IMG/VR virus record: IMGVR_UViG_3300008262_000003
Span: 101,530-165,529 of that record
Source: a virus
Length of the DNA stretch: 64,000 nt
Reading direction: 5' to 3' (one strand)
The position numbers were made by a program, and so were the translations under genes. The notes below the pieces were generated by a model, which had not been told where the DNA came from, searched no databases, and saw only the letters and a program-made list of their open reading frames with translations. Positions 1,635-60,681 of the stretch are shown here, piece after piece (position 1 is the first letter of the stretch; each line of letters starts with the position of its first letter).

Positions 1635-1642
1635 ATAAATAC
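1635..1642 (-). promoter_or_regulatory. GTATTTAT element upstream of 301-aa virion gene
   Basis: Sense strand ATGTATTTATAAAATAG, 20 nt before the ATG at 1614. Confidence 0.5.
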
Positions 1643-10077: not shown

Positions 10078-10085
10078 ATAAATAG
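10078..10085 (-). promoter_or_regulatory. CTATTTAT element upstream of 1612-aa gene
   Basis: Sense strand AACTATTTATTCAAAAAG, 15 nt before the ATG at 10062. A second copy, ATATTTAT, lies about 35 nt further upstream. Confidence 0.45.
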
Positions 10086-12443: not shown

Positions 12444-12451
12444 ATAAATAC
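12444..12451 (-). promoter_or_regulatory. GTATTTAT element upstream of gp25 gene
   Basis: Sense strand GTATTTATAAAATATGG; 5 nt separate the element from the ATG. Confidence 0.5.
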
Positions 12452-16167: not shown

Positions 16168-16175
16168 ATAAATAT
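16168..16175 (-). promoter_or_regulatory. ATATTTAT element upstream of helicase gene
   Basis: Sense strand GTATATTTATCAAAACAGC, 23 nt before the helicase ATG. Confidence 0.4.
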
Positions 16176-20566: not shown

Positions 20567-20574
20567 ATAAATAT
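20567..20574 (-). promoter_or_regulatory. ATATTTAT element upstream of 74-aa gene
   Basis: Sense strand AGATATTTATTAAAC, 17 nt before the ATG at 20549. Confidence 0.45.
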
Positions 20575-26982: not shown

Positions 26983-27295
26983 AATAGAAGAAGTAATTAT
27001 TCAATGCCGCGTTATAATCTTGTAGTGTCGCCACCAATGGAAATGGAACGTTTATTGTCGTACCATCGGGTATTGACCATTCTAAACCACCAAATTGTGG
27101 ATTTGCTTGTAATATTAACCAACCAAAAAAAGGTGTGCCATAATATTCCTGTGATATCTTATCCATTCTACTTCTTCCTACACGATAAATGTATCTTTGA
27201 TCCGAGTTTTTAGGTCTCAAAGGAACAAATGGGACAACGGTTTGACCACCATTTACTTCAAAATCCACATATCTATTATAATATTGATAACTCAT
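26972..27295 (-). CDS. 53: Baseplate wedge protein, gp53-like with LysM fold
   Basis: 107 aa. The core YIYRVGRSRMDKISQEYYG, FFGWLILQANPQFGGLEWSI, then PDGTTINVPFPL has the LysM-type arrangement seen in T4 gp53 and in tail protein X: short opening strand, helix containing DKIS, helix with NPQ, closing strand with IPxGTxxxVP. gp53 joins adjacent baseplate wedges. It overlaps the genes on both sides (4 and 11 nt), giving a translationally coupled baseplate trio. Confidence 0.8.
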   Translation of the reverse strand: MSYQYYNRYVDFEVNGGQTVVPFVPLRPKNSDQRYIYRVGRSRMDKISQEYYGTPFFGWLILQANPQFGGLEWSIPDGTTINVPFPLVATLQDYNAALNNYFFYYGR

Positions 27296-32120: not shown

Positions 32121-32128
32121 ATAAATAG
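32121..32128 (-). promoter_or_regulatory. CTATTTAT element upstream of OmpA-domain gene
   Basis: Sense strand CTATTTATATTAAAATG; 17 nt before the preferred ATG at 32103. Confidence 0.45.
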
Positions 32129-33898: not shown

Positions 33899-33906
33899 AT
33901 AAATAT
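33899..33906 (-). promoter_or_regulatory. ATATTTAT element upstream of tape measure gene
   Basis: Sense strand CAATATTTATTGTAAATAAAG, 14 nt before the ATG and just past the stop of the chaperone extension. Confidence 0.45.
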
Positions 33907-34860: not shown

Positions 34861-35349
34861 TTAATATACCAAGATACAACGATCCATACGTAATGAACAA
34901 GATAGAGTCGCTAACTTATCATCACTATATGATGCTTGTGACCAAGATACATCAGTCAAGAAAGTATTTTCAAGTATCCACTTTTCAACAACAACACCCG
35001 TTGGATCTAACATCTCTAAGTCAATGTTTTTCTTATAACCCGCAGCATAACCCATACGACCTGTTACAGATTCAGCGTGCAAACGAACCCACTCCATTAA
35101 TGCCTGTGTTGCCGATGGCCCAATAGGATCCACAAAATCAACTTTAATCGGGTCCCAATTGAATCTACCCGCAACGAATGTACTTGTATTTAAGAACGGT
35201 ATTTCTGTACTACCTATTTTTATTGCCGGTCTTCCCGAACTCTGAACATACCATTCGTTAATACCCAATGAAGAAGGGAATCTTAATATAAATCGGTTAT
35301 TCCTTTTGGGTTCATAAGGAATAGGCATTTTCATTAACAAATCAGCCAT
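34861..35349 (-). CDS. 19: Tail tube protein, gp19-like
   Basis: 162 aa, matching T4 gp19 (163 aa). Features of the family: N-terminal PYEPKRNNRFILRFPSS, the FNWDPIKVDFVDPIGPSAT strand pair, MEWVRLHAE helix, NIDLEMLDPTG and WILENTFLTDVSWSQASYSD. Six copies per ring form the inner tube through which DNA passes. A GTATTTAT element lies 33 nt before the ATG and a strong terminator lies 33 nt after the stop, so it is a separate, probably highly expressed unit. Confidence 0.9.
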   Translation of the reverse strand: MADLLMKMPIPYEPKRNNRFILRFPSSLGINEWYVQSSGRPAIKIGSTEIPFLNTSTFVAGRFNWDPIKVDFVDPIGPSATQALMEWVRLHAESVTGRMGYAAGYKKNIDLEMLDPTGVVVEKWILENTFLTDVSWSQASYSDDKLATLSCSLRMDRCILVY

Positions 35350-35382: not shown

Positions 35383-35390
35383 ATAAATAC
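35383..35390 (-). promoter_or_regulatory. GTATTTAT element upstream of tail tube gene
   Basis: Sense strand GAGTATTTATATATAAAAC, 33 nt before the ATG at 35349; among the longest leaders of the set. Confidence 0.5.
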
Positions 35391-36305: not shown

Positions 36306-39300
36306 TTAGATATTTTCAAAAGACGCACCTGTTGGTGTAATTAAGAACTCGATATCAATGAATTCCAAAGATTTAGTTGGTTTAATATAAACTTTACCCA
36401 CCAATTGGTTTCTATCCAAATCTTCGGGTGAAGAACTTACCGTAACTCTGAAATCATATAGACCTCTATCTCTTCTAATTGAATCCAAAATAGGATTAAC
36501 CGCATCTAAGAAATCTTGTCTAACTTTCTCATCGTTTTGTTCAAACAACAATCTAACCGCAACCGCTGAAATTAATTTACGAGCTTGTAACAACAATCTT
36601 CTAACATTTAATCTGTCAAGTGCTGATTGTGCAACTTGTAGTGTTTTATTACCCCAAATTACAGTTCCAACATCTGAGAAAGTTGCGATAGGATTAATTC
36701 TTCCTTGATACAATGTATCTCTATCTGTTTGAGTTAGTTTTCTTCTTGCTTTTACCGAATTAACCAAACCTCTAGTATAACCCGCCGATGCGAACCAAGG
36801 GAAAGCTATATTATCGGTAAGTGCTAAGTTTCTACAAACCTCACCTGTTGGTGGAAGATAAATTTGTGTGTTATTAACAGTATCTCTAACTAAAATCCAA
36901 GGATAATAAGTTGATGTATAGTTAGAATCAATACCAGTATCATCCAAAGTATTAACAGCTTCAGTCGGATCAATGAAATCTTGTGAATCCACCGTTGAAA
37001 CCAATAGGTCAATATCGGGAGTTGTTGTGATATAGATCGAATCCGCTCTATCTTGCTCAACCATCTCAATTGCGTTTTCAACTAAGTTACTGTTATTTAC
37101 ATAATCAATACCCGGAGTTGCGAATACGTTAATATTAGTTGCTTCAGGATTTGCGAATGTTTGAATACCAATTAAGTAAGCATAATAGTCAGTTGTTGCA
37201 TAATCGGTAGTGTTATTACCATATGTATATGGTCTAAACGCACCCCAACCAGTTGCCGATGGATATCTTGTATCACAAGTAGATGAAACACCTTTCTGAT
37301 ATCCTGTACCACCTAAAATAAATTCATCACCATTAGATCTTCTTTCTCTATAAATGTCCCAACCATCAAAACCACCTTGAACTAAGAATGTGAATTTACG
37401 TGATTGTATTTTATAATATGGATTAGCGGGATCTGTTGGGTCTGTTGTGAAACTTGTTGATCCAACTTCAAATGCCGATGTTCCTGAAGATAGGTATGAA
37501 TTTGCGATAGTTACTACCGTAGCACCACTATCCATGTGGAAACCTTTAGTTTGATAAGTCCAACTTGATGCCTCATTACAAATACTTGTTGGGTTTTGTT
37601 TTCCTTTATATTGGAACAAATCGGAGTCAATACCCAATTGTGATGAAAATCCTAAGTAAGTAGTTCTAACTTTATCACCACTTGATGTTGTTGAATTATC
37701 TGCCGAACCTGTAGCATTTCCAAATGGTGGGTTGTAAATAACTTCACCAGGGAAATCATACTTAGTTTTATATACAGGTTGTGGTGGTGTGTTTGATGTT
37801 GAAGAATAGGTTCTTTCAATTAAACCTTCAAAACCACAAGGAATGGCATCTACAGGTGCATCATAATTAAGCTCCAACATAATAAACTTAGAGTTTAATT
37901 GGTATTCACCATCAGAGGTACCAACTTTAACACCAATGTAACTATTTTGACTAGGATCCATTGTACAGTTTGTGAATTTCTCCAAAATAACAGGATTTGT
38001 GTCCGTATCGTAAAAATCCCTAACAGCAATATCAAAAGTTAAATTATTGAACGACATATTCAATATTGAAACTTTAACTTGTGTATTAGCAGCATTACCA
38101 TCTGAAATTGTAATTACTTTGAAAAGTTCATACACCTGATTACCTCGAAGTTCTGAAACCACCCAAGGAGAACTTGGTGTTTGGTAAGGATCTAAGAAAT
38201 AAGCCATAGTTCCTGTTGTGTTAGCAGCTCTCAACCCCGGTAACTGAATTAAACTTGTGCTTAGTCCTCTAATGTAACCTTTATTATAACCAAAATTCAA
38301 CAAGTTAGGATAAATTTCTTCTACGAAAAGAGGAACTACTGTTCTGTCTTTACCAAAATTATCTTTACCCAATACTTTACTCAAATAGTTAGTTCCTGTT
38401 TGTTGCATTGACGCAGTTAGTGTGAATGGTGTGGAATTTGAAGTTGTTAAACCTGAAATTTGGAATTCTGTGTATGGATTTTTAGTTACACCGCTATTTA
38501 CATCTACCAAATTAACATTTGATTGAGCACTTACAACAAAATCGGGTCCCGCAACTCCGGAACCGTAATTAGAAACACCTCTTGATCTCAATGTTGCAAC
38601 CACCATATTATTATATGCTGAATATGCAGTACCTGACCAACCAAAAGTTTGTCCCGAAATCGTTCCCGTGTATGATGTGTAAGATCCAGCACTTAAACCT
38701 CCCGACAATGAACTTAAGAAAGTTACAAAAGAACGACCAACATACGCATTGCCCGAACTGATATTAAACAATGAATAATACCAAGGATCATTTAAATAAG
38801 ATGTGTAATCCTGAGATGATGCGTTTGTGTTATAAACACCTAAAACGTTTGTTGAAGCCGTGTAAGCACCTGATGTATATGTTGTGTTAGTTGCCGATGG
38901 TAAACTACCAAAAATATATGATGTTGCACCTGAATTAACTTGAACAACCGCAGCGGTATCATTACCAAAAACCGTTAATAATAAATTTTGTAAATCTGTT
39001 GTAAATGTTGAAGTACTACCATCTATTTTAGTATATGACGCATTTACGTCTGTATATGCTGACAATCCGTTTGTTAAAATATTTACAGTTCCCGTTGAGT
39101 TAGCACTAAATGTAACTGTGAATCCAACAGGTGTATTACCTGTAATACCAATTGTTGATGTATTTGGATTTGCAATCGTTTTGATAGTCCAAGATGGTCC
39201 TGCATCATATCCTGATAGACCTAATATTCTTGATACAAATAACTGATTTGATTGTTGTAAATATGATTTTGCAATATATGCCATTTCATATTTAGGAATT

Positions 39301-39512
39301 TGTGTGTTCACAAATTTTTCTGTTGAAGTTCCACCGAAATATGTTTCATACTCATCAAAACTAGTGATAAAAATTGGTTCGAAAGCGGGACCTTTTAGTG
39401 CCTCACCAACCAAACCCAATGTTGTAACACCAACACTTTGAGCAACAAAACTTAAATCCCTTTCTGAGGTATAAACCCCAGGTGAAACGAATACCTTATT
39501 TGCTGTAGCCAT
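36306..39512 (-). CDS. 18: Tail sheath protein, gp18-like, enlarged
   Basis: 1068 aa against 659 in T4 gp18. The N-terminus ANKVFVSPGVYTSERDLSFV and the C-terminal fold (RKLTQTDRDTLYQGRINPIA, VIWGNKTLQVAQSALDRLNV, DFRVTVSSSPEDLDRNQL, then YIKPTKSLEFIDIEFLI) are diagnostic of contractile sheath subunits. The extra length is mainly between residues about 110 and 800 and is Ser/Thr/Gly-rich and beta-type, probably domains exposed on the outside of the sheath. The protein surrounds the tube and contracts on infection. A GTATTTAT element lies 29 nt before the ATG. Confidence 0.93.
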   Translation of the reverse strand: MATANKVFVSPGVYTSERDLSFVAQSVGVTTLGLVGEALKGPAFEPIFITSFDEYETYFGGTSTEKFVNTQIPKYEMAYIAKSYLQQSNQLFVSRILGLSGYDAGPSWTIKTIANPNTSTIGITGNTPVGFTVTFSANSTGTVNILTNGLSAYTDVNASYTKIDGSTSTFTTDLQNLLLTVFGNDTAAVVQVNSGATSYIFGSLPSATNTTYTSGAYTASTNVLGVYNTNASSQDYTSYLNDPWYYSLFNISSGNAYVGRSFVTFLSSLSGGLSAGSYTSYTGTISGQTFGWSGTAYSAYNNMVVATLRSRGVSNYGSGVAGPDFVVSAQSNVNLVDVNSGVTKNPYTEFQISGLTTSNSTPFTLTASMQQTGTNYLSKVLGKDNFGKDRTVVPLFVEEIYPNLLNFGYNKGYIRGLSTSLIQLPGLRAANTTGTMAYFLDPYQTPSSPWVVSELRGNQVYELFKVITISDGNAANTQVKVSILNMSFNNLTFDIAVRDFYDTDTNPVILEKFTNCTMDPSQNSYIGVKVGTSDGEYQLNSKFIMLELNYDAPVDAIPCGFEGLIERTYSSTSNTPPQPVYKTKYDFPGEVIYNPPFGNATGSADNSTTSSGDKVRTTYLGFSSQLGIDSDLFQYKGKQNPTSICNEASSWTYQTKGFHMDSGATVVTIANSYLSSGTSAFEVGSTSFTTDPTDPANPYYKIQSRKFTFLVQGGFDGWDIYRERRSNGDEFILGGTGYQKGVSSTCDTRYPSATGWGAFRPYTYGNNTTDYATTDYYAYLIGIQTFANPEATNINVFATPGIDYVNNSNLVENAIEMVEQDRADSIYITTTPDIDLLVSTVDSQDFIDPTEAVNTLDDTGIDSNYTSTYYPWILVRDTVNNTQIYLPPTGEVCRNLALTDNIAFPWFASAGYTRGLVNSVKARRKLTQTDRDTLYQGRINPIATFSDVGTVIWGNKTLQVAQSALDRLNVRRLLLQARKLISAVAVRLLFEQNDEKVRQDFLDAVNPILDSIRRDRGLYDFRVTVSSSPEDLDRNQLVGKVYIKPTKSLEFIDIEFLITPTGASFENI

Positions 39513-39541: not shown

Positions 39542-39549
39542 ATAAATAC
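39542..39549 (-). promoter_or_regulatory. GTATTTAT element upstream of sheath gene
   Basis: Sense strand AAGTATTTATGGTAAATAAA, 29 nt before the sheath ATG. Confidence 0.5.
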
Positions 39550-40826: not shown

Positions 40827-41342
40827 TTATATTCCATTAAATTCATTTCTATTAACAGGTACCGCCACGAATGTTCTATAAAAAGGTTTATATCCGCCAT
40901 AAGTATGTTTCAAATCTGAAGTAACACGACCATCATTAGCTACACTATAATACCTTACTTTTGATTCCGTTTCATAATATGCAATATAATCACCGTATTC
41001 TATATCAATACTTAATTCATCCAATTCTTTTTGATACACCGAAAACGTCATGTTACCTGGTTCCATTTGATCTAACTTACTGTTTCCAATAAATTTGTTT
41101 TCAGGTGCAACAATCTTAACATACGCTTTGAACTCCACAGGGGGTTGATAGGTAATACCACCTTCGGGTGCTTCACCATAAACATCGTCTTTTTTGGTTT
41201 TACTTTTATCCACTTTATATAAAACCAAAGTAAAGTTCATATCACCTTCCAACCATTCACGACCCATCTCAATATCTAAGTCGTAGTCTTCAGCTCCAAA
41301 AAACTTTCCTAATCTTGTTATCGGTACTTTACGCTCTGCCAT
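40827..41342 (-). CDS. Neck / head-tail connector protein (gp14-like, tentative)
   Basis: 171 aa, starting MAERKVPITRLGKFFGAED. It has beta segments such as VEFKAYVKIVAPENKFIG and IEYGDYIAYYETESKVRYYS, the latter like the part of neck proteins that says a value or unit may be set. It is followed after 2 nt by the gp15-like gene, and the gp13-like gene is nearby on the other strand. Assignment to gp14 rests on order and is tentative. A GTATTTAT element ends 4 nt before the ATG. Confidence 0.6.
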   Translation of the reverse strand: MAERKVPITRLGKFFGAEDYDLDIEMGREWLEGDMNFTLVLYKVDKSKTKKDDVYGEAPEGGITYQPPVEFKAYVKIVAPENKFIGNSKLDQMEPGNMTFSVYQKELDELSIDIEYGDYIAYYETESKVRYYSVANDGRVTSDLKHTYGGYKPFYRTFVAVPVNRNEFNGI

Positions 41343-41346: not shown

Positions 41347-41354
41347 ATAAATAC
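41347..41354 (-). promoter_or_regulatory. GTATTTAT element upstream of neck gene
   Basis: Sense strand AAGTATTTATCAATATGGC, only 4 nt before the ATG. On the other strand ATATTTAC lies 9 nt before the SNF2 gene start, so the region is a divergent control site. Confidence 0.5.
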
Positions 41355-43139: not shown

Positions 43140-43144
43140 TGATA

Positions 43145-43151
43145 TATTTAT
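43145..43151 (+). promoter_or_regulatory. TATTTAT element, array copy 1
   Basis: GATATATTTATCATTATG; 4 nt before the ATG. Confidence 0.5.
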
Positions 43152-43155: not shown

Positions 43156-43479
43156 ATGAAAGTTAAAGTAACAGAAGATAAGTTATACCCTGTTTTCAAA
43201 AAATTTATGGAAACTCAGTTTAAGAATTATGAATGGATCGAAGATAATTATGATGTTGTTTTGTTTATGAGTCCCGGAGGAGATTCTTATTTGGCGTTGA
43301 GTAAAGATAAAACTTTATTAATTTATGCTAAAACCGCAAAAAAAATCCTTAATTACCTTCCTATGGAACGATCTATGTTCCTATCACTTATGACTAGATG
43401 GGTAGGAGAGACCTTAAATATTAAGGGTATAACCCTCTCGCAGTTTCAACAGTTGGTTTTGATTAGCCTTAATAGATAA
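43156..43479 (+). CDS. Array paralog 1, unknown function (107 aa)
   Basis: 107 aa. The first 26 residues (MKVKVTEDKLYPVFKKFMET, QFKNYEW) are nearly identical in all five copies; then a variable strand region, a hydrophobic ILxYxPME(R)SM segment and SLMTRWVGETL. This copy is the most diverged: it has SPGGDSYLAL in place of DPEGxGHLxL and a different tail (QFQQLVLISLNR). The family is not recognised; likely alpha/beta, cytoplasmic, no Cys or membrane segment. It follows the SNF2 gene by 16 nt. Confidence 0.75.
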   Translation: MKVKVTEDKLYPVFKKFMETQFKNYEWIEDNYDVVLFMSPGGDSYLALSKDKTLLIYAKTAKKILNYLPMERSMFLSLMTRWVGETLNIKGITLSQFQQLVLISLNR

Positions 43480-43487
43480 TAATAATA

Positions 43488-43494
43488 TATTTAT
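43488..43494 (+). promoter_or_regulatory. TATTTAT element, array copy 2
   Basis: AATATATTTATCATTATG; 4 nt before the ATG. Confidence 0.5.
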
Positions 43495-43498
43495 CATT

Positions 43499-43840
43499 AT
43501 GAAAGTTAAAGTAACAGAAGAAAAGTTATATCCATTATTCAAAAAATTCATGGAAACTCAGTTTAAGAAATATGAATGGAGAAAAGGTAAATTTGATTCC
43601 ATTTGGTTCATAGACCCTGAAGGATATGGTCACATGGGATTGTTGAAAAATAAAGAGTTATTAATCTATCGTGAGATTAAAGATCAAATTCTTCGCTACA
43701 TTCCTATGGAAAAATCTATGTTACAAACACTTATGAGTAAGTGGGTAGAAGAAACCCTTCAAGTTGAAGGGTTAACCGTTCCCACTGTACCCCAATTTAC
43801 AATACCGCGTTTTTATGATGGTGATACCTTTCCATTATAA
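43499..43840 (+). CDS. Array paralog 2, unknown function (113 aa)
   Basis: 113 aa, the longest copy. It has the conserved head MKVKVTEEKLYPLFKKFMET, an IWFIDPEGYGHMGL strand pair, YIPMEKSML and LMSKWVEETLQVEGL, and a tail ending DGDTFPL. The same C-terminal FPL and stop are found as DNA remnants after copies 4 and 5, so this length is probably ancestral. Tail sequence before FPL differs completely from copy 3, suggesting relaxed or diversifying selection there. Confidence 0.75.
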   Translation: MKVKVTEEKLYPLFKKFMETQFKKYEWRKGKFDSIWFIDPEGYGHMGLLKNKELLIYREIKDQILRYIPMEKSMLQTLMSKWVEETLQVEGLTVPTVPQFTIPRFYDGDTFPL

Positions 43841-43843
43841 GAA

Positions 43844-43850
43844 TATTTAT
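43844..43850 (+). promoter_or_regulatory. TATTTAT element, array copy 3
   Basis: GAATATTTATCAATATG; 4 nt before the ATG. Confidence 0.5.
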
Positions 43851-43854
43851 CAAT

Positions 43855-44190
43855 ATGAAAGTTAAAGTAACAGAAGATAAGTTATACCCTGTTTTCAAAA
43901 AATTTATGGAAACTCAGTTTAAGAATTATGAATGGAGAAAAGATCGGAATGATGACATTTGGTTTTCAGATCCTAAAGGGTATGGTCATTTGGGATTGGT
44001 ACACATTAAGGATTTATTGATCTATCGTGATATTAGAAAAAAAATACTTCCTTATCTTCCTATGGAACAATCTATGTTAAACTCACTTATGAGTAAGTGG
44101 GTAGAAGAGACCCTTCAAGTTAAGGGGTTAGCCCCCACTTTGGCAAGACACGAATCCTATCCATTAGTTGATGGATCCTTTCCATTATAA
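43855..44190 (+). CDS. Array paralog 3, unknown function (111 aa)
   Basis: 111 aa with the family head MKVKVTEDKLYPVFKKFMET, IWFSDPKGYGHLGL, YLPMEQSML and LMSKWVEETLQVKGL, ending VDGSFPL. Its first about 90 bp are almost identical to copy 1 while the body is closer to copy 2, as expected if recombination has shuffled the 5' parts of the copies. Confidence 0.75.
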   Translation: MKVKVTEDKLYPVFKKFMETQFKNYEWRKDRNDDIWFSDPKGYGHLGLVHIKDLLIYRDIRKKILPYLPMEQSMLNSLMSKWVEETLQVKGLAPTLARHESYPLVDGSFPL

Positions 44191-44193
44191 GAA

Positions 44194-44200
44194 TATTTAT
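44194..44200 (+). promoter_or_regulatory. TATTTAT element, array copy 4
   Basis: GAATATTTATCATTATG; 4 nt before the ATG. Confidence 0.5.
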
Positions 44201-44204
44201 CATT

Positions 44205-44513
44205 ATGAAAGTTAAAGTAACAGAAGAAAAGTTATATCCAGTATTCAAAAAATTTATGGAAACTCAGTTTAAGAATTATGAATGGACAAAAGATGAATAT
44301 GGGTGTATTGATTTTGTGGATCCTGAAGGATTTGGTCATTTGGAATTGGAAAACAATGAAGATTTATGGGTTTATGGTGATATTAAAGATCAAATTCTTC
44401 GCTACATTCCTATGGAAGAATATATGTTAGAATCACTTATGGGTAGATGGGTTGGAGATACCTTTCAAATTGAGGGTATAAACACCAGTATAGAATCGTT
44501 TCCAAATTTTTAA
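44205..44513 (+). CDS. Array paralog 4, unknown function (102 aa)
   Basis: 102 aa. Family head, then IDFVDPEGFGHLEL, YIPMEEYML and LMGRWVGDTFQIEGI. It stops earlier than copies 2 and 3; downstream, GCCTTTCCATTGTAA still encodes the ancestral A-F-P-L-stop in a continuing frame, so the shorter end is secondary. Many acidic residues compared with copies 1-3. Confidence 0.75.
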   Translation: MKVKVTEEKLYPVFKKFMETQFKNYEWTKDEYGCIDFVDPEGFGHLELENNEDLWVYGDIKDQILRYIPMEEYMLESLMGRWVGDTFQIEGINTSIESFPNF

Positions 44514-44543
44514 ATCGTTGAAAATGCCTTTCCATTGTAAGAA

Positions 44544-44550
44544 TATTTAT
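44544..44550 (+). promoter_or_regulatory. TATTTAT element, array copy 5
   Basis: GAATATTTATATGGTATG; 5 nt before the ATG. A closer in-register ATG (ATATGG) is not in the gene frame. Confidence 0.45.
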
Positions 44551-44555
44551 ATGGT

Positions 44556-44846
44556 ATGAAAGTCAAGGTAACAGAAGAAAAGTTATATCCAGTTTTCAAA
44601 AAATTCATGGAAACTCAGTTTAAGAAATATGAATGGAGAAAAGATGAACTTGGGACTATTTGGTTTATGGATCCTGAAGGATTTGGTGATCTGGAATTGG
44701 GAGATAAAAATTTATGGGTTCATCGTGATATTAAAAATAAAATTCTTCGTTATCTTCCTATGGAAGAATCTATGTTAGACTCGCTTATATCTAGATGGGT
44801 TGGAGATACTTTTCAAATTGAGGGTATAAACATCCTCGAGATGTGA
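44556..44846 (+). CDS. Array paralog 5, unknown function (96 aa)
   Basis: 96 aa, the shortest copy. It shares RWVGDTFQIEGIN with copy 4, so these two are the most recent pair. It ends LEM; the DNA after the stop still holds GGTGATACCTTTCCATTATAA, the ancestral G-D-T-F-P-L-stop, now outside the gene. The following promoter-like element and ATGAAA belong to the SOD gene. Confidence 0.75.
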   Translation: MKVKVTEEKLYPVFKKFMETQFKKYEWRKDELGTIWFMDPEGFGDLELGDKNLWVHRDIKNKILRYLPMEESMLDSLISRWVGDTFQIEGINILEM

Positions 44847-44891
44847 TTGCCATGGTAGGAGGAAGTTGGTGATACCTTTCCATTATAAGAA

Positions 44892-44898
44892 TATTTAT
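44892..44898 (+). promoter_or_regulatory. TATTTAT element upstream of SOD gene
   Basis: GAATATTTATATGGTATGAAA, identical to the copy-5 leader; 5 nt before the ATG. Confidence 0.5.
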
Positions 44899-44903
44899 AT
44901 GGT

Positions 44904-45578
44904 ATGAAACTACTTGAGAGAAAAATACATTTACTAGAATCTTTATTGGATGGTAAGAATATTTTTGAAGCCAATTATAAAGCACAAAAATTAGATTATA
45001 ACTTAAATTCATTATCAGATTTTATCGGTAAAGATACTATGGATGTTCATTATAATGGACATTATAAAACTTACCTTAAAAAATTAAATGAACTTCTACC
45101 GGATGAAAAAATGATCCCAATAGAAGATTTAATTAAAAAAATATCAAGGTATAACAAGAAAATTAGGAATAATGCTGGTGGTGTATATAACCACCAACTA
45201 TTTTGGAAAATGTTATCACCAAACAAAACAAAACCATCTAAAGAACTATTAGAAAAAATTAACAAAGATTTTGGTTCTTATGATGAGTTCAAACAAAAGT
45301 TTGAAAAAGTGGCATTAGACAGGTTTGGTTCAGGATGGGTTTGGTTAATTATGGGTAAAAGTGGTAGGTTACGTGTCGTATCTACACCCAATCAGGACAA
45401 CCCCGAGATGAATATTATTAGAAATGGAGGAAAAATTTTATTGGGGCTTGACATTTGGGAACATGCGTATTATCTTAGCTACCGAAATGAGAGAGACCGA
45501 TATATCAAAAACTTTTGGAAAGTGGTAAATTGGGATTTCGTAAGTTCAGAATATCAGAAACTTAAACCAACTAAATAA
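44904..45578 (+). CDS. sod: Fe/Mn superoxide dismutase, Mn-type active site, with N-terminal leader
   Basis: 224 aa. All four metal ligands are present: H49 (MDVHYNGH), H97 (YNHQLFW), D183 and H187 (GLDIWEHAYY), with H53 and Y57 in the second shell. The 48-residue distance from first to second ligand is the same as in human MnSOD. Q164 in VVSTPNQDNP and Gly in NNAGGVYNH are the Mn-type choice rather than the Fe-type Gln69. It converts superoxide to peroxide and oxygen. About 25 extra N-terminal residues contain I-F-E followed by Ala at 20-23, a possible prohead protease site, so it may be packaged. It uses an array-derived leader and overlaps the next gene by one base (TAATG). Confidence 0.9.
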   Translation: MKLLERKIHLLESLLDGKNIFEANYKAQKLDYNLNSLSDFIGKDTMDVHYNGHYKTYLKKLNELLPDEKMIPIEDLIKKISRYNKKIRNNAGGVYNHQLFWKMLSPNKTKPSKELLEKINKDFGSYDEFKQKFEKVALDRFGSGWVWLIMGKSGRLRVVSTPNQDNPEMNIIRNGGKILLGLDIWEHAYYLSYRNERDRYIKNFWKVVNWDFVSSEYQKLKPTK

Positions 45579-46393: not shown

Positions 46394-46397
46394 TTGA

Positions 46398-46404
46398 TAT
46401 TTAT
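46398..46404 (+). promoter_or_regulatory. TATTTAT element upstream of gp13 gene
   Basis: TGATATTTATATGAAAAAAG; 13 nt before the ATG at 46418. Confidence 0.5.
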
Positions 46405-46417: not shown

Positions 46418-47530
46418 ATGGCAATTATCCCTGAACCAGAAAGAAGTCAATTATACAAAAGAATTAAAAATCTTTTAGGTGCCCCAATCCGATCAGTAGA
46501 GATTGAGGATGAAATGATGGATTCACTTATGGAATTATCCATTGGTGATTATAGCCAATACGTGTTAGATTGGTTGATAGAATCTCAATGGACATCTCTT
46601 TATGGATTGAATTTAGATGAGAAATCCGTTGCAAACGCACTTGTTAGAAGAACTTTAGATTGGGAAACACAATATACCTATGCATATTCAAAAATTGTAG
46701 GATTACAAACAAATGGTCCTTGGGTGTTAAAACAAGATTATTTTGATTTAATGCCAAACCAACAACTTTATGAGATTCCCGCAGGAAGAGAAATAAACGA
46801 ATTAATGTGGTTTACAAGACCTGCATTAAATAACACATTGTTTGATCCTTGGTCTATGGGTTTCTTGGGTGGTCCCGGTATTGGTGGTCCTGCGGGATTT
46901 TCACAGATGGGGTTCCAAGGAGGTTATTTTATGATGTCAGCATATGATATGGTGGCACGTATGCAAGATATTAACCTTAAATCAAGAATTTTAGGTTCGG
47001 ATCTTACATATAAAATCACCGCACTTCCCGACGGAAAAAGAATGGTTCACCTTTTGAATGTTCCCGGTGGTAAATTTAATTTTGGTAATATTGGATATAA
47101 TCAATATAGAGTATTCTATTGGTATTACGATACCACAGACGATAACAGAAACGATTGTTTAGCCGCTAATCCCGATATTGTTAAGTTACCTTCAGATGTT
47201 CCATTGGATAACCTATCCTGGGTAGATCTTAACGCACCCGCCCAACAATGGGTTCGTCGTTGGTTTACGGCTTACGTTAAAGAAACTTTATCAAGAGTTA
47301 GAGGGAAGTATTCGGGTAACTTAAAAACACCTGATTCCGAACTTCAAATGGAATATACAACACTTCAAACCGAAGCTAAAGACGAAAAATCTACACTTTT
47401 AGAAGAACTTAAATTACGTTTAGAAAGACTACGTCCTGAAAAACAAATGGAAAAAGAAGCATCAATTGCTGAAAACCTAAATAAACAACTTAAATTCAGA
47501 GCGTTTAAAGTCCCAATTCAAGCAATCTAA
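46418..47530 (+). CDS. 13: Neck protein, gp13-like
   Basis: 370 aa (T4 gp13 is 309 aa). The N-terminal helical part (RSQLYKRIKNLLGAPIRSVE, then ISIGDYSQYV-type segment) and the C-terminal WVRRWFTAYVKETLSRVRGK, YSGNLKTPDSELQMEY, then EEKSTLLEEL-like helices match gp13/head-completion proteins of T4-type phages. gp13 sits at the portal exit and receives the tail. A central Gly-rich loop (GFLGGPGIGGPAGFSQMGF) is an extra insertion. It is on the opposite strand from the other neck and tail genes, which is unusual. Confidence 0.8.
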   Translation: MAIIPEPERSQLYKRIKNLLGAPIRSVEIEDEMMDSLMELSIGDYSQYVLDWLIESQWTSLYGLNLDEKSVANALVRRTLDWETQYTYAYSKIVGLQTNGPWVLKQDYFDLMPNQQLYEIPAGREINELMWFTRPALNNTLFDPWSMGFLGGPGIGGPAGFSQMGFQGGYFMMSAYDMVARMQDINLKSRILGSDLTYKITALPDGKRMVHLLNVPGGKFNFGNIGYNQYRVFYWYYDTTDDNRNDCLAANPDIVKLPSDVPLDNLSWVDLNAPAQQWVRRWFTAYVKETLSRVRGKYSGNLKTPDSELQMEYTTLQTEAKDEKSTLLEELKLRLERLRPEKQMEKEASIAENLNKQLKFRAFKVPIQAI

Positions 47531-47531: not shown

Positions 47532-47846
47532 ATGCAAGTTAAAAGAACTATCGTAAGAACAAGTTTACCTGATCAACGTAGAACGTTGGTTACGGATTTA
47601 GAAGTATTCACAACAAATGGTGAAACCTTAGTCATCGCTAAGAATAATTGTAAAATCAAACTAAATTCACAATTAGGTGATTCCATAATTATTAAAGTAT
47701 TAAATGGTGCCTTAATTATTCCTGATTTTGGTCGAATTGACGAAGAATGGGATGAAATCGTTTTGGAAAAAGGTGCTTGTGTTGATTTTAGGTTCGTTGA
47801 AGGAAATTGGTACATTCTTTCTTCAGATGGATTGAAAACAGTTTAA
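47532..47846 (+). CDS. Small beta-rich protein, possible neck or capsid decoration
   Basis: 104 aa. An all-beta pattern with EEWDEIVLEKGACVDFRFVE, then GNWYILSSDG near the end; such 'GNWYxxSSDG' endings are frequent in the C-terminal modules of phage structural proteins. Starts 1 nt after the gp13 stop, so it is co-translated with it. Its stop codon shares four bases with the stop of the convergent polymerase gene. The exact role is unknown. Confidence 0.7.
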   Translation: MQVKRTIVRTSLPDQRRTLVTDLEVFTTNGETLVIAKNNCKIKLNSQLGDSIIIKVLNGALIIPDFGRIDEEWDEIVLEKGACVDFRFVEGNWYILSSDGLKTV

Positions 47847-50629
47847 ATAAACTGTTCCCAATCTTCTGATGCGTTTTCATACATATAGTATGGATCCAAT
47901 CCCCTCTTTTCCCAATATTTGAATTCATCCTGAGAGATGGTCAATACTTCCTCTAAGGAATCTTGGTCACCATCTTCTAATGGAAGACCGTTTACCAACT
48001 CACATTGTGTTGCGGTAAATAATCCTCTCTTTTCAGGTTCAGATACCAAAAGTTCGTTTCTTACTTCCTCACCAAAAACAACCATTAAAGGTTCCAAACG
48101 TTTGTTAAACGTTACAATTGCTCTCGGAACATTATAATCACCCAACAAGTTAGGATTGTTCTCAATATCAGCAGGATCCAAACGATAACAGTTAATCTTA
48201 ACCGTGGGATCAAAATATTGACCAGGATTATTCACCTTACCATAAGCATTCATTTGATCTTCCATCTCCTTTTTAGCCTTGGCACTTGTTACTTTTTGAA
48301 CATCCCCGTGAGACGCTTTGGTACCATTATTCACATAATAAATCACATCACCAAGATTAACAGAAATACCATCTTTCATAGCGAGTTCCATATGAGCCAT
48401 TCTACTCATAGAGTTACCTGCTTTGGTGGTTGATGAACATCTGATTTTGTAATCTTCCATACTTAGTTTCACCTTGGCTCTCTGAGCAATCTTAACAAGG
48501 GGAATTTGTTTGTTATAGATCTTATCAAGATACTCATAATAATACTCAACAAATTCTTTACCCTCACCTTTAAGTAACATCTTAATACCTTTGTCCAAGA
48601 ACTCTTCAATATATACCGGTAGTTTCTTTGATTTAATCGTATTACCAACAAGTTTGATTTTACCTTTATCTGTGATAAGAGCATAGTTCTTTCTTGCGAT
48701 GTTAATACACGAAGGCCAAACACCATCAGTATCCAACGCCATCTCACCCCTCATAAATAAGTCATTGTATTCGGCAACATCTGCTTCAGCACCTGTGTAT
48801 TCCTTACCCTCTTTTACCTTCCAATTGTTACCCTTACCAATATATTTACGATCCTCAACATCATCGGGTGATGAAAAGTTTACACCATCGGTATCCATCA
48901 CCAAGGGTTTATAACCTTTCTTCATAAAGAATTTAATCATCTGTCTTAAATACTGACGACCTGTACAAGTGATCTGTTCCCCCATATACATATCACCCCA
49001 ATGATATACTTGTGGTGCAGATAACGCCCCAAACATAGAATTGATGAAGATCTTAATCGGAAGTTGTTTTCGGTCATAAGATAATGACTTTTTAGGATCC
49101 GACTTACTGAAGTCCTCGGCAAGTTGTTTGTATTTGATACGAGTATCTCGGAAGTATTTTAACATCCCCTTCATCGCACCTGTAATATCACACTTAGGGA
49201 ATACATCGTGAACCAACTGAATTGATGGATAAAGTGACGAAAAGTCAAGTTTCAATACATTCTTAGAATATCCCACAGTAATTAGTCGTGAAAGACCACC
49301 AACAAAATCAGTTTTACCTTGTTTCTCGGGAACTGCAAGATTGTATTTGTATGACCACGCCAACATAATCATCTTCCATAATGTGGCGGTTCCCATTGTT
49401 GAAACCCTCTCATATGTTGTCGGTACCTGTGATGCCAACAAAAATGATCCTTGTGAAAATTCTTCATCCACTTTTAAGGTTTCTTCCAAGTCATCGTCAA
49501 GATACATCTCAACCAACTCTCTACCACTAATCTTCTTATATACACCGGGGAACCTAACATCCAAGTCGTTGAATTGTGGATTATCGGCTTTCTTGTATTT
49601 ACCGTTAGTTACATTTAACCAAAAATCTTCATTATCCCGATAAAAAGGTCCGATGTCCAAGTGATCAATATATACACGATCAGGTGCCTCGGCTTCAATA
49701 TATTGTGTAATATACTTAAGACCCGCACTTTTGATACTCGAGTTAATCGCTTGTGCTCTACGAACCGAATGGATAATATCAATCACATTATATCCCCACA
49801 TTCCAACTTGGTTATACTTCTCAACTTCGTTGGCTAGTTTTAATAAGGATTCGTTTTGTTTAATCTTAACCTCGGGGTTTAATGTTTGAGCAATTTTCTT
49901 AATATCCAAACCAAGAATCCTTGTTCTTTCAAATATCCAATACCAGTCAAAGTTCGCCGAATTATAACCACCGATAATACTTGGTCTTAGTTCGTTAATC
50001 ACTCGGAAAAATTCAATAATTCCCGCACGTTCTTCATCATCATTCGTACATTCAATAACACGACAATATCCTTTATTGGTTTTCATACCAATCATAAAAA
50101 TACGACCATCCTTTGGTTCCAAAGAGGTCGTCTCCAAGTCAAATACAAATCTCGTAATCTCATCGTACTCCTCAAACCCTTTGAATAATCGTTTTTCTTT
50201 TGAGATCAGGAACTGCTCAACGGGGGGTAACACCATAATAAGATCCTTTGTGTTTTCACCCCAAGGATCAACCCCACCCTCTCTAAAAAATTGTATTAGG
50301 TTTCTATAACCCATTAAGGACCTCACCATAAAAGTAAGACCTTTTTCTAATCTTTCATCACCATCTGTGCGAAGTTTGTCAATAACAATTTTATGTTTTG
50401 TCATCGCTTCTTTCTGTGCTGCTTTTGAGGACTTATAGAAATTTAACCCCCTCAAATCACCAACCCAAGCAAATGGAATGAATGTGTCTTTTTTAATTTG
50501 TTTTCCGTGTAACGGATGCTCGATGATTTTCCAAATACAATCTTTTGTGTAATCGTATTCAACACCGACGATGTATTTTTCAGGATCATTACCCTGTAAA
50601 AACTTTTCAATTTCGTTTTGATCAATCAT
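47843..50629 (-). CDS. 43: DNA polymerase, family B (gp43-like)
   Basis: About 928 aa from the ATG at 50629 (A-rich leader AAATATTTTATG); an in-frame ATG at 50653 would add 8 residues. Exonuclease motifs: FVFDLETTSL (near 166) and GGYNSANFDWYW. Polymerase motif A DFSSLYPSIQ (near 466), motif B KIFINSMFGALSAP (near 533) and motif C MDTDGVNF (near 579), where the common DTDS is DTDG. T4 gp43 is 898 aa. It is the replicative polymerase with proofreading. It lies apart from the other replication genes and has a Bacteroidota-like promoter upstream, so it is likely expressed early by host RNA polymerase. Confidence 0.93.
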   Translation of the reverse strand: MIDQNEIEKFLQGNDPEKYIVGVEYDYTKDCIWKIIEHPLHGKQIKKDTFIPFAWVGDLRGLNFYKSSKAAQKEAMTKHKIVIDKLRTDGDERLEKGLTFMVRSLMGYRNLIQFFREGGVDPWGENTKDLIMVLPPVEQFLISKEKRLFKGFEEYDEITRFVFDLETTSLEPKDGRIFMIGMKTNKGYCRVIECTNDDEERAGIIEFFRVINELRPSIIGGYNSANFDWYWIFERTRILGLDIKKIAQTLNPEVKIKQNESLLKLANEVEKYNQVGMWGYNVIDIIHSVRRAQAINSSIKSAGLKYITQYIEAEAPDRVYIDHLDIGPFYRDNEDFWLNVTNGKYKKADNPQFNDLDVRFPGVYKKISGRELVEMYLDDDLEETLKVDEEFSQGSFLLASQVPTTYERVSTMGTATLWKMIMLAWSYKYNLAVPEKQGKTDFVGGLSRLITVGYSKNVLKLDFSSLYPSIQLVHDVFPKCDITGAMKGMLKYFRDTRIKYKQLAEDFSKSDPKKSLSYDRKQLPIKIFINSMFGALSAPQVYHWGDMYMGEQITCTGRQYLRQMIKFFMKKGYKPLVMDTDGVNFSSPDDVEDRKYIGKGNNWKVKEGKEYTGAEADVAEYNDLFMRGEMALDTDGVWPSCINIARKNYALITDKGKIKLVGNTIKSKKLPVYIEEFLDKGIKMLLKGEGKEFVEYYYEYLDKIYNKQIPLVKIAQRAKVKLSMEDYKIRCSSTTKAGNSMSRMAHMELAMKDGISVNLGDVIYYVNNGTKASHGDVQKVTSAKAKKEMEDQMNAYGKVNNPGQYFDPTVKINCYRLDPADIENNPNLLGDYNVPRAIVTFNKRLEPLMVVFGEEVRNELLVSEPEKRGLFTATQCELVNGLPLEDGDQDSLEEVLTISQDEFKYWEKRGLDPYYMYENASEDWEQFI

Positions 50630-50689
50630 AAAATATTTTTTTGTGTGGTACATTGGCTGCCGAACTTGCCGACATTAACCTTAACGACA

Positions 50690-50720
50690 CAAAGATACTT
50701 TATTAAATTGATAAAATCAA
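50690..50720 (-). promoter_or_regulatory. Bacteroidota-type promoter for DNA polymerase
   Basis: Minus strand TTG, 20 nt, TATCTTTG, matching the published Bacteroidota pattern (TTTG or TTG near -33, TAnnTTTG near -7). It lies 61 nt before the preferred polymerase ATG. Confidence 0.55.
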
Positions 50721-51097
50721 CAACAGGGACTTTCTAAAATAAAACTATCAAGAATGTTAATAAACAACCTATCACGTATGGGGACTATAAGCCGACCATT
50801 AGTATTAACCACATTGAACTCACCTTCAAACCTACCCGGTTTGTTAGTGTCTTGTGACCTAAATTGGTAGTAAATATAATACTCAGGAAGGGCATTGGGG
50901 TCTAATTGTGTCTTTTCAACAATATACGCCGGTTTACCAACTATTTTAGGTATCCCCGTTTCTAAGTTAGTCATAGAAAAAGTTATGGTAGAAGTTTCCA
51001 AACTTTCCATAAAAGACCTAAAATCACTTCTTCCATCATTAACCACTTGCATTTTAATAAGCGGTAACGTAGAAAATTTCTTAATATAAAAATCCAT
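50717..51097 (-). CDS. Small virion-like protein with BppU-type Ig pattern
   Basis: 126 aa. The stretch STITFSMTNLETGIPKIVGK, then EYYIYYQFRSQDTNKPGRFE and GEFNVV resembles the N-terminal Ig-like module of baseplate upper proteins (BppU type), which links fibres to the baseplate. It ends ESPCC. A GTATTTAT element lies 14 nt before the ATG, so it is probably a late gene although it is next to the polymerase. Family assignment is tentative. Confidence 0.65.
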   Translation of the reverse strand: MDFYIKKFSTLPLIKMQVVNDGRSDFRSFMESLETSTITFSMTNLETGIPKIVGKPAYIVEKTQLDPNALPEYYIYYQFRSQDTNKPGRFEGEFNVVNTNGRLIVPIRDRLFINILDSFILESPCC

Positions 51098-51111: not shown

Positions 51112-51119
51112 ATAAATAC
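51112..51119 (-). promoter_or_regulatory. GTATTTAT element upstream of 126-aa gene
   Basis: Sense strand AAGTATTTATAATAAAAAC, 14 nt before the ATG at 51097. Confidence 0.5.
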
Positions 51120-51183
51120 TTAATAAAAGGAAAATAGTTTTTATTTATTATTAGTTATGGTGAAACTTTAACAATAAACGAGA

Positions 51184-51190
51184 TATTTAT
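51184..51190 (+). promoter_or_regulatory. TATTTAT element upstream of RHH gene
   Basis: GATATTTATATAATATGG, 5 nt before the ATG at 51196. Confidence 0.45.
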
Positions 51191-51195: not shown

Positions 51196-51351
51196 ATGGC
51201 AAGACCAACAAAATTAGAAGAAGATAGAAAGGTTAAATTTGGAATAAGTTTAGACCGTGATTTATTTAACCGAATGGTTAAAGAAAAAATTAAAAAATCA
51301 ACATTACTTAATAAATTATTAAAAGAGTATTATGCAAACAAAGATATGTAG
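51196..51351 (+). CDS. Small ribbon-helix-helix protein next to HNH endonuclease
   Basis: 51 aa, ATG 51196 to TAG 51351, beginning MARPTKLEEDRKVKFGISLD. VKFGIS is the ribbon strand, DRDLFNRMVKEK the first helix and KSTLLNKLLKEYYA the second: a CopG/Arc-like fold. Its last 20 nt overlap the HNH gene, so the two are expressed together, and it may repress the pair. TAG is a less common stop here. Confidence 0.65.
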   Translation: MARPTKLEEDRKVKFGISLDRDLFNRMVKEKIKKSTLLNKLLKEYYANKDM

Positions 51352-57808: not shown

Positions 57809-59788
57809 TTATACTAATTTTACATAGAATGTATCACCACTCTCACTTGTTATCGGGTCGGAAGCTTCGGTTGTTAATAACACATATTCGGGTGTATAGT
57901 TACAACTTGAACAAAACAAATCAAGTAATGAAAATTTATTTTTTAATATTCTGAAATTATGTTGTATCTCGGGAACCGATAATGGTTGAATATAAAACCT
58001 AAATTGCGATATTGAACCGTCAAATGTTCCTGCGAAATTTTTCTCAATTATTATATTATTTGTTAAAGCACTTAAACTTGTTCCACTTAATACACTATCG
58101 GGGAAAAGTTGAGGATCTTGCTGATATGTCCAAGTACCACCACTTGTTAAAGCACTAAACGTAAGATTTTCTCTTAGACCTTGTGTTCCACCACCCCAAG
58201 ATAAATTAAACGGAACACCAACTTGTCTTTCACGTTTTGTATTTAAGGGTCTTGGAATAACTTCTTCAAAATTATTTAAGACAAAAAACGGTTTTCCATT
58301 AACAGAAATTTTTAACTTACCGATTCTATCTGATTTTTGGTCTAAAAATTCTCTATTAATGTCAATAATCTCTTCCATTGCCGGAGAAAGATTATCATGG
58401 GTGATTGGTGGTCTAACCAACGATATTGAATTGTTTGCCGCAGTTGCAGTAAATGCCGAATAACTAATATCACCCAAACCTCCTCTCCACAATAAATCAC
58501 ATTTATCGTAGTAAGTATTTCTTTCAAATGTCGCATCAATTAAAACCCAATGTGGGTATTCAATAAATGTGGTTCCCGTACAAGAATCATAAATACCGTT
58601 AGTTGAACAATAAGTTGAAACCGAATATCCACTAGAGTATGTTAATCCTGTATTGAAACAAGAACCTGTCGTAATACAAGATCCTGTGAAATATAAAACT
58701 CTAACACAAATATTAGGATTCAATGGATTTCCACTAAACATAATCGCTAATGAATTTGACATAGAGTCGTCTAGTGGATCCTTTATTGGGTTTTGAACGG
58801 TTTGTTCAGAAATTTTAGGACGAGAAAAATAATTTATAATATGTTCTGTGGTAGTTCCTGTTTTTGGATAAACTGTAACACATGTGGAATTAGTGATAGC
58901 ACTATTATAACAAGCACTTGTACCTAAATCAGTAAGTCCCAACGTAACGGGTGTATAACCACTAGCAGCACCCGATAGTGTATAATCCGCAGGGTGATAA
59001 AACTTATCCTCGGCTCTTGTTCCCATATAAAAGAAAATATTCTTGTTATTTGGGTATATTGTATTTAGGTTGGTTTCACCAGGTCCCGGTTCATATTCGG
59101 GAACAACTCTAGGTTTTAACACCATCTCTACCGTCCATCCTTTATGATACCTTTCGGGAATCACATCATAATCATATCCAAATAATTTATAAAATCCTTG
59201 GTAAAAAGAACCATACAAATCATTATAGTAACCTTCATTAAATCCGTTTTGAGAAACAATACCATAATCAGTTGTTGCGGTAATACCACTAAAATATGAT
59301 GATAGTGTTGGTACCATAGATCTTACTTGGAACATCTTAAATCTTCTATCGTATGAATACCTATCAAATTTTTGAGCGTTTGATAACAACCCCTTGGTAT
59401 ATGATATAGAAACCCCTGTAAGTCCCGACATTAATCCATTATCAGTTCCGGTTAGTCCAATATCAAATAAAGTTTGACTTGAGTAACAACCACCACTTAA
59501 TGAACTTGCGGGAATATTATCGGGATTATAATAACTTTTTGAAATTAAAATATTATTTGTATTGTAAGAATAATAATCTAAAGTTAATTGTTGATTACAA
59601 TCTTCGGAATCTAAATCTATGTTAATAGGTAACTTATTTCCATCATTAACCCCAATAACATCATTAGAAAACACAACTTCTTCATTGAAATCTTTTTCAT
59701 CCGATGTTAATGATAGGTCAGAAATATCCACTGCAGGTCTTAAAAAAACCTTTGGAAATACGTATTGATTTATATTTTGATATGCCAT
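57809..59788 (-). CDS. Virion protein with LamG/concanavalin-A-like domain
   Basis: About 659 aa from the ATG at 59788; a TTG at 59845 would add an unlikely 19 residues. From about residue 220 it has GWTVEMVLKPRV, HWVLIDATFER, GKLKISVNGKPFFVLNNFEE and a final GTFDGSISQFRFYIQPLSVP, then EIQHNF, the layout of a LamG-type lectin domain. Several Cys residues (CITTGSCFN, FCSSCNY) occur. Likely a carbohydrate-binding part of the tail tip. A GTATTTAT element lies 5 nt before the ATG. Confidence 0.75.
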   Translation of the reverse strand: MAYQNINQYVFPKVFLRPAVDISDLSLTSDEKDFNEEVVFSNDVIGVNDGNKLPINIDLDSEDCNQQLTLDYYSYNTNNILISKSYYNPDNIPASSLSGGCYSSQTLFDIGLTGTDNGLMSGLTGVSISYTKGLLSNAQKFDRYSYDRRFKMFQVRSMVPTLSSYFSGITATTDYGIVSQNGFNEGYYNDLYGSFYQGFYKLFGYDYDVIPERYHKGWTVEMVLKPRVVPEYEPGPGETNLNTIYPNNKNIFFYMGTRAEDKFYHPADYTLSGAASGYTPVTLGLTDLGTSACYNSAITNSTCVTVYPKTGTTTEHIINYFSRPKISEQTVQNPIKDPLDDSMSNSLAIMFSGNPLNPNICVRVLYFTGSCITTGSCFNTGLTYSSGYSVSTYCSTNGIYDSCTGTTFIEYPHWVLIDATFERNTYYDKCDLLWRGGLGDISYSAFTATAANNSISLVRPPITHDNLSPAMEEIIDINREFLDQKSDRIGKLKISVNGKPFFVLNNFEEVIPRPLNTKRERQVGVPFNLSWGGGTQGLRENLTFSALTSGGTWTYQQDPQLFPDSVLSGTSLSALTNNIIIEKNFAGTFDGSISQFRFYIQPLSVPEIQHNFRILKNKFSLLDLFCSSCNYTPEYVLLTTEASDPITSESGDTFYVKLV

Positions 59789-59793
59789 TATAG

Positions 59794-59801
59794 ATAAATA
59801 C
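59794..59801 (-). promoter_or_regulatory. GTATTTAT element upstream of LamG-like gene
   Basis: Sense strand GGTATTTATCTATAATGG, 5 nt before the ATG at 59788; pairs back-to-back with the element on the other strand. Confidence 0.5.
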
Positions 59802-59813
59802 CTACTTGATGAG

Positions 59814-59820
59814 TATTTAT
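59814..59820 (+). promoter_or_regulatory. GTATTTAT element upstream of 281-aa gene
   Basis: GAGTATTTATAGTAAAAAAG, 15 nt before the ATG at 59836. With 59794-59801 it forms a 47-bp divergent control region. Confidence 0.5.
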
Positions 59821-59835
59821 AGTAAAAAAGTGTAA

Positions 59836-60681
59836 ATGAAATCAACCACTTTAAAATTTGAAAATAATAATCTCCTTGTCACTATTATGGAATCTAGTGA
59901 TGAGATTATCTTGCAGTATAATTTTACCGACACGTTAAACGAAACAAAAAGTAAAACTAAATCCGTAAAATTAAAAAAAGACTCCAAGGGGGATATTAAA
60001 AAACTCATTAAGAATTTGGGAACTAAAAAGTTTTCAAAAGATGATGTTGAGGATGAAGTTCTAAAAATTAAATCCAAGGGTGAGGTTAAAGAACTGATAG
60101 ATGATGATGGAAGTTTTGCATCATCAAGAATTCCAATTATAGATCCTAGATTGGCACCAAAGAAAACTATGGACCAAACTGTTGCAGCAACTCGTCAAAC
60201 GATGAATCCTATTTTGAGGGGTTATCGTGTGTATTATGGTGAATCGGTAGTTAGAGAAACAGATATGTCCGACGCTTTTGGATATGAGGAAACTAAAGAC
60301 ATGAATGGTAAAGAAACATTTAAATATTTCAAAGAGACATTAGGGTTGGATCCTATTGAGGCGGTTGAACGAACTAAACAACAAGGAAAAGATCCTTTTG
60401 GAAAAAAGACAAAAAACGCACCCAAGAAAATTAGAAAACAAAAAGGTTTTATTGATAGAATGACATTATCCGAAAAGGAATCTTTAGAAGAAATGGAAAA
60501 ACAACAAATGTTGGATATGTTAGAAAATTTATTAAAAAACAAGTCCGACGATCGTGATATCTATACAAATCATAAAAGTATTTCTAATAATATTAAAAGT
60601 CAGATTAAGAAAATTAAAAAACTTGCTGATGAAAATAATATAGACCTAAAAAAATTGATAGATTCTTTTTACGATGAATAA
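59836..60681 (+). CDS. Hypothetical Lys-rich protein, first gene of plus-strand operon
   Basis: 281 aa. Three parts can be seen: a Lys/Asp/Glu-rich N-terminal domain with beta strands (LVTIMESSDEIILQYNFT), a middle region (RIPIIDPRLAPKKTMDQTVA), and a helical, charged C-terminus (SEKESLEEMEKQQMLDMLEN). No enzyme motif. High charge suggests nucleic-acid or scaffold association, but this is a guess. It overlaps the next gene by 8 nt. Confidence 0.7.
   Translation: MKSTTLKFENNNLLVTIMESSDEIILQYNFTDTLNETKSKTKSVKLKKDSKGDIKKLIKNLGTKKFSKDDVEDEVLKIKSKGEVKELIDDDGSFASSRIPIIDPRLAPKKTMDQTVAATRQTMNPILRGYRVYYGESVVRETDMSDAFGYEETKDMNGKETFKYFKETLGLDPIEAVERTKQQGKDPFGKKTKNAPKKIRKQKGFIDRMTLSEKESLEEMEKQQMLDMLENLLKNKSDDRDIYTNHKSISNNIKSQIKKIKKLADENNIDLKKLIDSFYDE

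Follow-up and report, generated by a model that had tools for sequence, protein, structure and literature searches.

RTATTTAT, a Probable Late Promoter Core in T4-Related Myoviruses Mostly of Bacteroidota

Introduction

Two genes of a virus diverge from a short region, positions 59789-59835 of the DNA stretch analyzed here, in which the AT-rich word RTATTTAT is written twice and points outward to each gene. The stretch, referred to as the window, comprises 64,000 nt and corresponds to positions 101,530-165,529 of a virus record of 165,529 b (G000). The locus raises the question of what this word does and which protein reads it. An earlier note on the same DNA regarded the word as the mark of most late genes and as the reverse complement of the T4 late box, and the divergent pair was found as the note had described it. 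RTATTTAT is considered here, with a probability of roughly 0.8, the -10-like core of a phage-specific late promoter in T4-related myoviruses mostly of Bacteroidota, with a gp55-like protein as its most likely reader. For the analysis, the rest of the record was added as further stretches, 204 genes were called piecewise with a simple ORF caller in which the most upstream ATG was taken as the start, and 203 starts entered the upstream count.

Direction and Placement of the Element

In the whole record, TATTTAT is found in the sense direction within 40 nt before the start of 59 of the 203 genes, against 7.4±2.6 in dinucleotide shuffles (maximum 18 in 300 shuffles) and 8.1 under a Markov expectation. 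This comparison with a shuffled control, proposed in the earlier note, thus came out in favor of the element. By contrast, the reverse complement ATAAATA precedes 9 genes against 8.8 expected (40 nt, whole record), and the element is therefore directional. When the preceding purine is included, RTATTTAT is found within 60 nt before 56 starts against 4.1±2.0 expected (whole record). Alignment of the 57 unique sites reveals a purine preference before TATTTAT and little else, and position-by-position information across these sites shows no conserved -35 element.

The sites are concentrated at intergenic positions: per kb, the intergenic portion of the upstream regions holds 15.8 copies, the portion overlapping the preceding gene 0.28, and coding sequence read in the sense direction 0.275; equal frequency inside coding regions, named in the earlier note as counter-evidence, was thus not found. 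In accordance with the gap to the upstream gene, the box precedes 1 of 48 overlapping genes, 6 of 42 genes at 0-15 nt, and 12 of 17 genes at 16-30 nt. At seven box genes the T-run of an intrinsic terminator ends 14-31 nt before the ATG and the box lies between the T-run and the ATG, and three other genes have the same terminator layout with a host-type TAnnTTTG in the slot of the box; a gene directly behind a terminator needs a promoter at that point. The description of the word as a mark of most late genes is too strong, since what it marks, at 59 of 203 genes, is the starts of transcription units.

Box Sites in the Window

The twelve positions listed in the earlier note all carry the word on the strand given there, 32121 reading CTATTTAT and the others RTATTTAT. 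At the divergent locus, the minus-strand member of the outward pair (59794..59801) lies 5 nt before the ATG of gene 57809-59788 (-), for which a leaderless mRNA is predicted, and the plus-strand member (59813..59820) lies 15 nt before gene 59836-60681 (+); both are kept in relatives. On the minus strand, boxes are also found 33 nt before the tail tube gene 34861-35349 (35383..35390), 29 nt before the tail sheath gene 36306-39512 (39542..39549), 14 nt before a 579-aa gene, 32145-33884 (33899..33906), and, in the form CTATTTAT, 15 nt before a 1612-aa gene, 5224-10062 (10078..10084), and 17 nt before the ATG of a 1603-aa gene, 27292-32103 (32121..32128). Further minus-strand sites precede genes 709-1614 (1635..1642, 20 nt), 11977-12438 (12444..12451, 5 nt), 40827-41342 (41347..41354, 4 nt), and 50717-51097 (51112..51119, 14 nt), as well as a 74-aa gene, 20325-20549 (20567..20574, 17 nt), at which the box is kept in 13/13 orthologs. 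The site 23 nt before the DnaB-like helicase gene 14750-16144 (-) (16168..16175) is weakly supported and is kept in 1/4 orthologs.

On the plus strand, boxes precede gene 46418-47530, which has a weak head-tail adaptor match (46397..46404, 13 nt), and a 51-aa gene, 51196-51351 (51183..51190, 5 nt; kept in 3/3 orthologs). A run of small genes begins with 43156-43479 (box 43144..43151, 4 nt) and continues with 43499-43840 (43487..43494, 4 nt), 43855-44190 (43843..43850, 4 nt), 44205-44513 (44193..44200, 4 nt), 44556-44846 (44543..44550, 5 nt), and 44904-45578 (44891..44898, 5 nt). The proteins of this run (43156-45578, +) mostly start with MKVKVT..., each gene has its own box 4-5 nt before the ATG, and several genes have a common upstream CCTTTCCATTATAAGAA. 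The contrasting class is represented by the host-type -7 element TATCTTTG at 50690..50697 (-), located 36 nt before the DNA polymerase gene 47843-50653.

As a separate observation, several small proteins have a common N-terminus, MKK.I.LTESDLVRLVKKVI.E, resembling a T4-type capsid-targeting peptide that ends in an (I/L)xE cleavage site (L015:16807-17127, 18017-18583, 18624-19010, 14795-15310, 8688-9596 (-); L017:15139-15501 (-)). The box precedes 5/6 of their genes (Fisher p 0.009) and 9/15 in relatives (p 0.008).

Two Promoter Classes

The form TTG-(15-22)-TAnnTTTG, known from Bacteroidota housekeeping promoters, precedes 12 genes against 1.4 expected. No gene of the whole record has both RTATTTAT and a host-type element, and no class swaps were found between orthologs (0/54 and 0/18). 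Genes with the host-type element include those for DNA polymerase, primase, a Dam-type adenine methylase, DnaJ, and a phosphoesterase, and box genes include those for the tail sheath, tail tube, endolysin, a possible head-tail adaptor, and very large proteins of structural size. As in T4, the box stands before virion genes on both strands and not before early replication genes; it is missing before the RNR, exonuclease, recombinase, and SSB genes, as the earlier note had it, and the exception among replication genes is a weak DnaB-type helicase copy. The proposed late, phage-specific class of virion and accessory genes finds good support in gene function and in the exclusion from host-type promoters, with the word "late" taken from the annotated minority because several box genes are without known function. 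The box was not found before the gene of an RpoD-like phage sigma (0/14), the operon of which begins with a host-type -7 element in most relatives. An early-to-late cascade would be expected to show this order: early genes, including the operon of the RpoD-like sigma, would use host-type TTG/TAnnTTTG promoters, and RTATTTAT would switch on the late genes for virion, lysis, and accessory functions.

Two features of the RTATTTAT sites, a TA at the upstream end and the 4-5 nt geometry, are also those of the Bacteroidota housekeeping promoter, whereas the TTTG end and the TTG element at -33 are absent from the RTATTTAT sites. Since neither the TAnnTTTG -7 element nor a TTG near -33, which define Bacteroidota sigma(ABfr) promoters, is present, the sites do not belong to that promoter type.

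Conservation and Spacing to the ATG

Among orthologs of less than 80% identity, the box is found in 35/54 where the G000 gene has it, vs. 12/249 where it has not (65% vs. 5%), and in nearly all relatives with good sampling TATTTAT ranks first or second among the upstream 7-mers. The divergent locus (57809-59788/59836-60681) was compared among relatives with flanking genes about 31-95% identical, several contigs being near-identical so that independent lineages are fewer than the rows compared; the outward TATTTAT pair is kept in most relatives and the plus-strand copy in the others, and the spacer and flanks vary. Each box at this locus also reads ATAAATA inward, such that the locus alone cannot settle polarity, which is settled by the many one-directional sites elsewhere. 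LR756508, of which 49 kb were examined, has neither the box nor a gp55-like gene.

The distance to the ATG follows a distinct law. Among 410 unique box sites of the clade, 165 lie at 3-6 nt, 21 at 7-11 nt, and 142 at 12-18 nt; the peak at 4-5 nt comprises 147 of the 410 sites, and a second peak lies at 13-16 nt. The varying spacing described in the earlier note is correct as to the range (3-39 nt), although the distribution is bimodal, with modes at 4-5 and about 12-18 nt. Host-type elements also peak at 4-5 nt before the ATG, whereas antisense words and shuffles have no such peak. The distance between the -7 element and the transcription start site (TSS) is 4 or 5 nt in F. johnsoniae (PMC6847099). 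If the TSS likewise lies 4-5 nt downstream of the box, leaders would be 0-1 nt or about 9-12 nt long and leaders of 2-6 nt would be avoided; a box 4-5 nt before the ATG would yield a leaderless mRNA, and one at 13-16 nt a leader of about 9-12 nt. These leader lengths are read from the sequence, and the leaderless mRNAs that the earlier note predicted for boxes at 4-5 nt agree with the host rule and with the spacing law. In Mel-JY01, which uses Shine-Dalgarno (SD) sites, the box is kept but lies farther upstream, at a median of 33.5 nt, and 11/18 cases have an SD-like motif; this upstream shift leaves room for the SD.

These observations bear on whether RTATTTAT is a promoter at all. An artefact of chance or base composition in an AT-rich genome would be compatible with the raw count in the window, which is merely 1.4-fold above shuffles (35 vs. 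24.9±4.9), but directional, position-specific, and phylogenetically conserved enrichment upstream of genes, the intergenic confinement, the kept outward pair, and the spacing law rule it out for practical purposes. A translation-initiation or mRNA element, such as a ribosome site or enhancer, could be considered because the spacing to the ATG is very short in half of the cases and because the host group is without Shine-Dalgarno sites (PMC6847099). Such an element would nevertheless be expected neither to fall to the coding background where the upstream gene overlaps, nor to lie directly after terminators, nor to shift upstream of the SD in Mel-JY01, and this reading is thus very improbable. 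The operon-gap rule, terminator adjacency, directionality, and the shifted spacing in an SD-using phage argue strongly, in agreement with the earlier note, for a promoter rather than a ribosome site.

Relation to the T4 Late Promoter

The T4 late promoter, read with gp55/gp33/gp45 at TATAAATA, resembles the element described here in that a single 8-bp AT-rich -10-like box without a -35 element serves late virion genes on both strands; in the same polarity, TATTTAT matches TATAAAT at 5/7 positions, the central AA being replaced by TT. Unlike in T4, the distance to the ATG is much shorter, and many leaderless mRNAs are predicted. In a control with the same pipeline, TATAAATA was found in sense before 7/29 late genes of T4 vs. 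0.5 expected, whereas here it lies within 40 nt before 3 genes vs. 2.55 expected and is not enriched (whole record). RTATTTAT is therefore not a T4 late promoter by membership, as the defining sequence TATAAATA was looked for and did not turn up in enrichment. The description as the reverse complement of the T4 late box holds for the string but is misleading as to the mechanism, because polarity matters: TATAAATA is sense-enriched in T4 and not here, and the relation is one of strings only. The late promoters of Ma-LMM01, also considered for comparison, are different and have a SigA-like motif. In G000, an incomplete record, no match was found to gp55 (phrog_234), to the clamp (phrog_223), or to T4 gp33, gp44, and gp45, and no sliding clamp was detected.

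Candidate Readers of the Element

The gp55-like sigma factor for which the earlier note advised a search is absent from the 165-kb record; weak phrog_234 matches in two relatives nevertheless exposed a second protein family of about 243 aa, distantly gp55-like and predicted to map beyond the record end. The family is found in G008, G014, Mel-JY01, and immuto, and in 548 related viral loci. Six of eight members have a weak match to Sigma70_r2 (PF04542), at best 2.7e-4 and below the cut-off, and the phrog_234 match reaches 0.015 at best. The top PDB matches of a structural model (pLDDT 73.5) in Foldseek are sigma factors at a non-significant E of 0.03, and superposition on region 2 of sigmaE gives a TM of 0.70 by target length. 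These proteins have a weak sigma region 2 signal and, like the T4 gp55 family, occur with a -35-less late box; unlike T4 gp55, they have a longer C-terminal part with a helical, possibly HTH-like end (STKEIRxSIKK) and are without the SLDFL-type clamp-binding tail of gp55, and the similarity is below family cut-offs.

The record ends at window position 64000 and appears incomplete, and relatives continue with further genes, among them glycosyltransferase-like genes and, in L255, a gp55-like gene. G008 is collinear with G000 but inverted, and its gp55-like copy falls beyond the right end of G000; in L255, the ortholog of the last complete gene of the window is followed, about 9 kb further on, by the gp55-like gene. 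The gp55-like gene of G000 is thus predicted to lie beyond the right end of the record.

The other phage sigma is the RpoD-like protein of 267 aa at G000:78369-79172 (L018:18369-19172 -), in which regions 1.2, 2, and 4 are kept and a stretch of sigma3 is missing; its Sigma70 regions 2 and 4 score 59.5 and 57.6 bits vs. Pfam cut-offs of 24 and 24.1. Its C-terminus is LFDYM, most orthologs end in LFDY(L/M/I), and Bacteroidota RpoD ends more like L.KYLG. LFDY(L/M/I) is reminiscent of the clamp-binding tails of T4, but no other G000 protein, including DNA polymerase, ends in this manner, and clamp binding is kept here as a speculation. Furthermore, a 219-aa protein at 19661-20320 with a weak "RNA polymerase beta" match looks coiled-coil and not like a clamp or polymerase part, and MW495066 (L156), deposited as "Microcystis phage MaAM05" with rpoD, carries many bacterial metabolic genes, looks like a bacterial chromosome, and was set aside.

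That the box is read by the RpoD-like sigma rather than by the gp55-like protein could be argued because it is the sole clear sigma in the 165,529-b record, is conserved at 46-91% in box-bearing relatives, and is itself placed behind host-type promoters and never behind the box, as expected of a switch factor. Eight records of at least 190 kb, selected for the presence of either a gp55-like gene or a gene related to the last one that is complete in the window, carry both sigmas without exception, and co-occurrence within the Bacteroidota clade therefore cannot separate the two readers. However, Mel-JY01 and the cultured phage immuto have the box and the gp55-like family, and an RpoD-like sigma was not found in either; moreover, residues around region 2.4 of the RpoD-like sigma resemble host RpoD, the reader of TAnnTTTG, and its region 4 is kept, yet the box sites are without a -35 consensus. 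The RpoD-like sigma is thus an unlikely reader of the box. Still less probable is a middle promoter, read by host RNAP and host sigma with the aid of a MotA/AsiA-like phage activator: TATTTAT does agree with the host -7 element in the TA at -12/-11 and in the distance to the ATG, but a second conserved upstream site for an activator was not found in the aligned sites, the clade has two phage-encoded sigmas, and no sites swap between the promoter classes. It is moderately probable that the gp55-like family reads RTATTTAT, from a gene that in G000 would be situated past the right end of the record.

Flavobacterium phage vB_FspM_immuto (immuto) offers a cultured parallel. The same box is found there (29 vs. 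6.2 expected), with the genes for terminase, portal, and PhoH among those it precedes, and immuto has a gp55-like gene, YP_010114565.1, annotated as hypothetical; it differs in that an RpoD-like sigma was not found, the box is more often preceded by C, and the gp55-like protein is distant (29.5% identity). Independently of the box, a second upstream motif, TATATTTA...TTTAGGTAT, is enriched in immuto before genes with intergenic gaps (L293-L295) and is possibly another promoter class.

Perspective

A phage late promoter with a dedicated sigma is a known kind of element, of which the box described here would be a variant; a literature search that lay mostly outside subscription papers yielded no earlier description of a TATTTAT promoter or of late promoters in Bacteroidota phages, including immuto and Mel-JY01. 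The odds are about even that the unrecognised sigma family of 548 loci, annotated as hypothetical in the cultured members, the TATTTAT box that it would read, and the leader rule that avoids 2-6 nt together constitute a separate late-transcription system in a very large and mostly uncultured group of T4-related phages. With this finding, late promoters become readable from the sequence in many environmental phages of Bacteroidota, a family of hypothetical proteins becomes a sigma candidate, and a cultured phage-host pair, immuto and Flavobacterium sp. LMO8, offers itself for testing the box. Furthermore, the spacing law lets one expect leaderless mRNAs to be widespread among these phages, in a phylum in which most bacterial mRNAs carry a leader (87% in one F. 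species).
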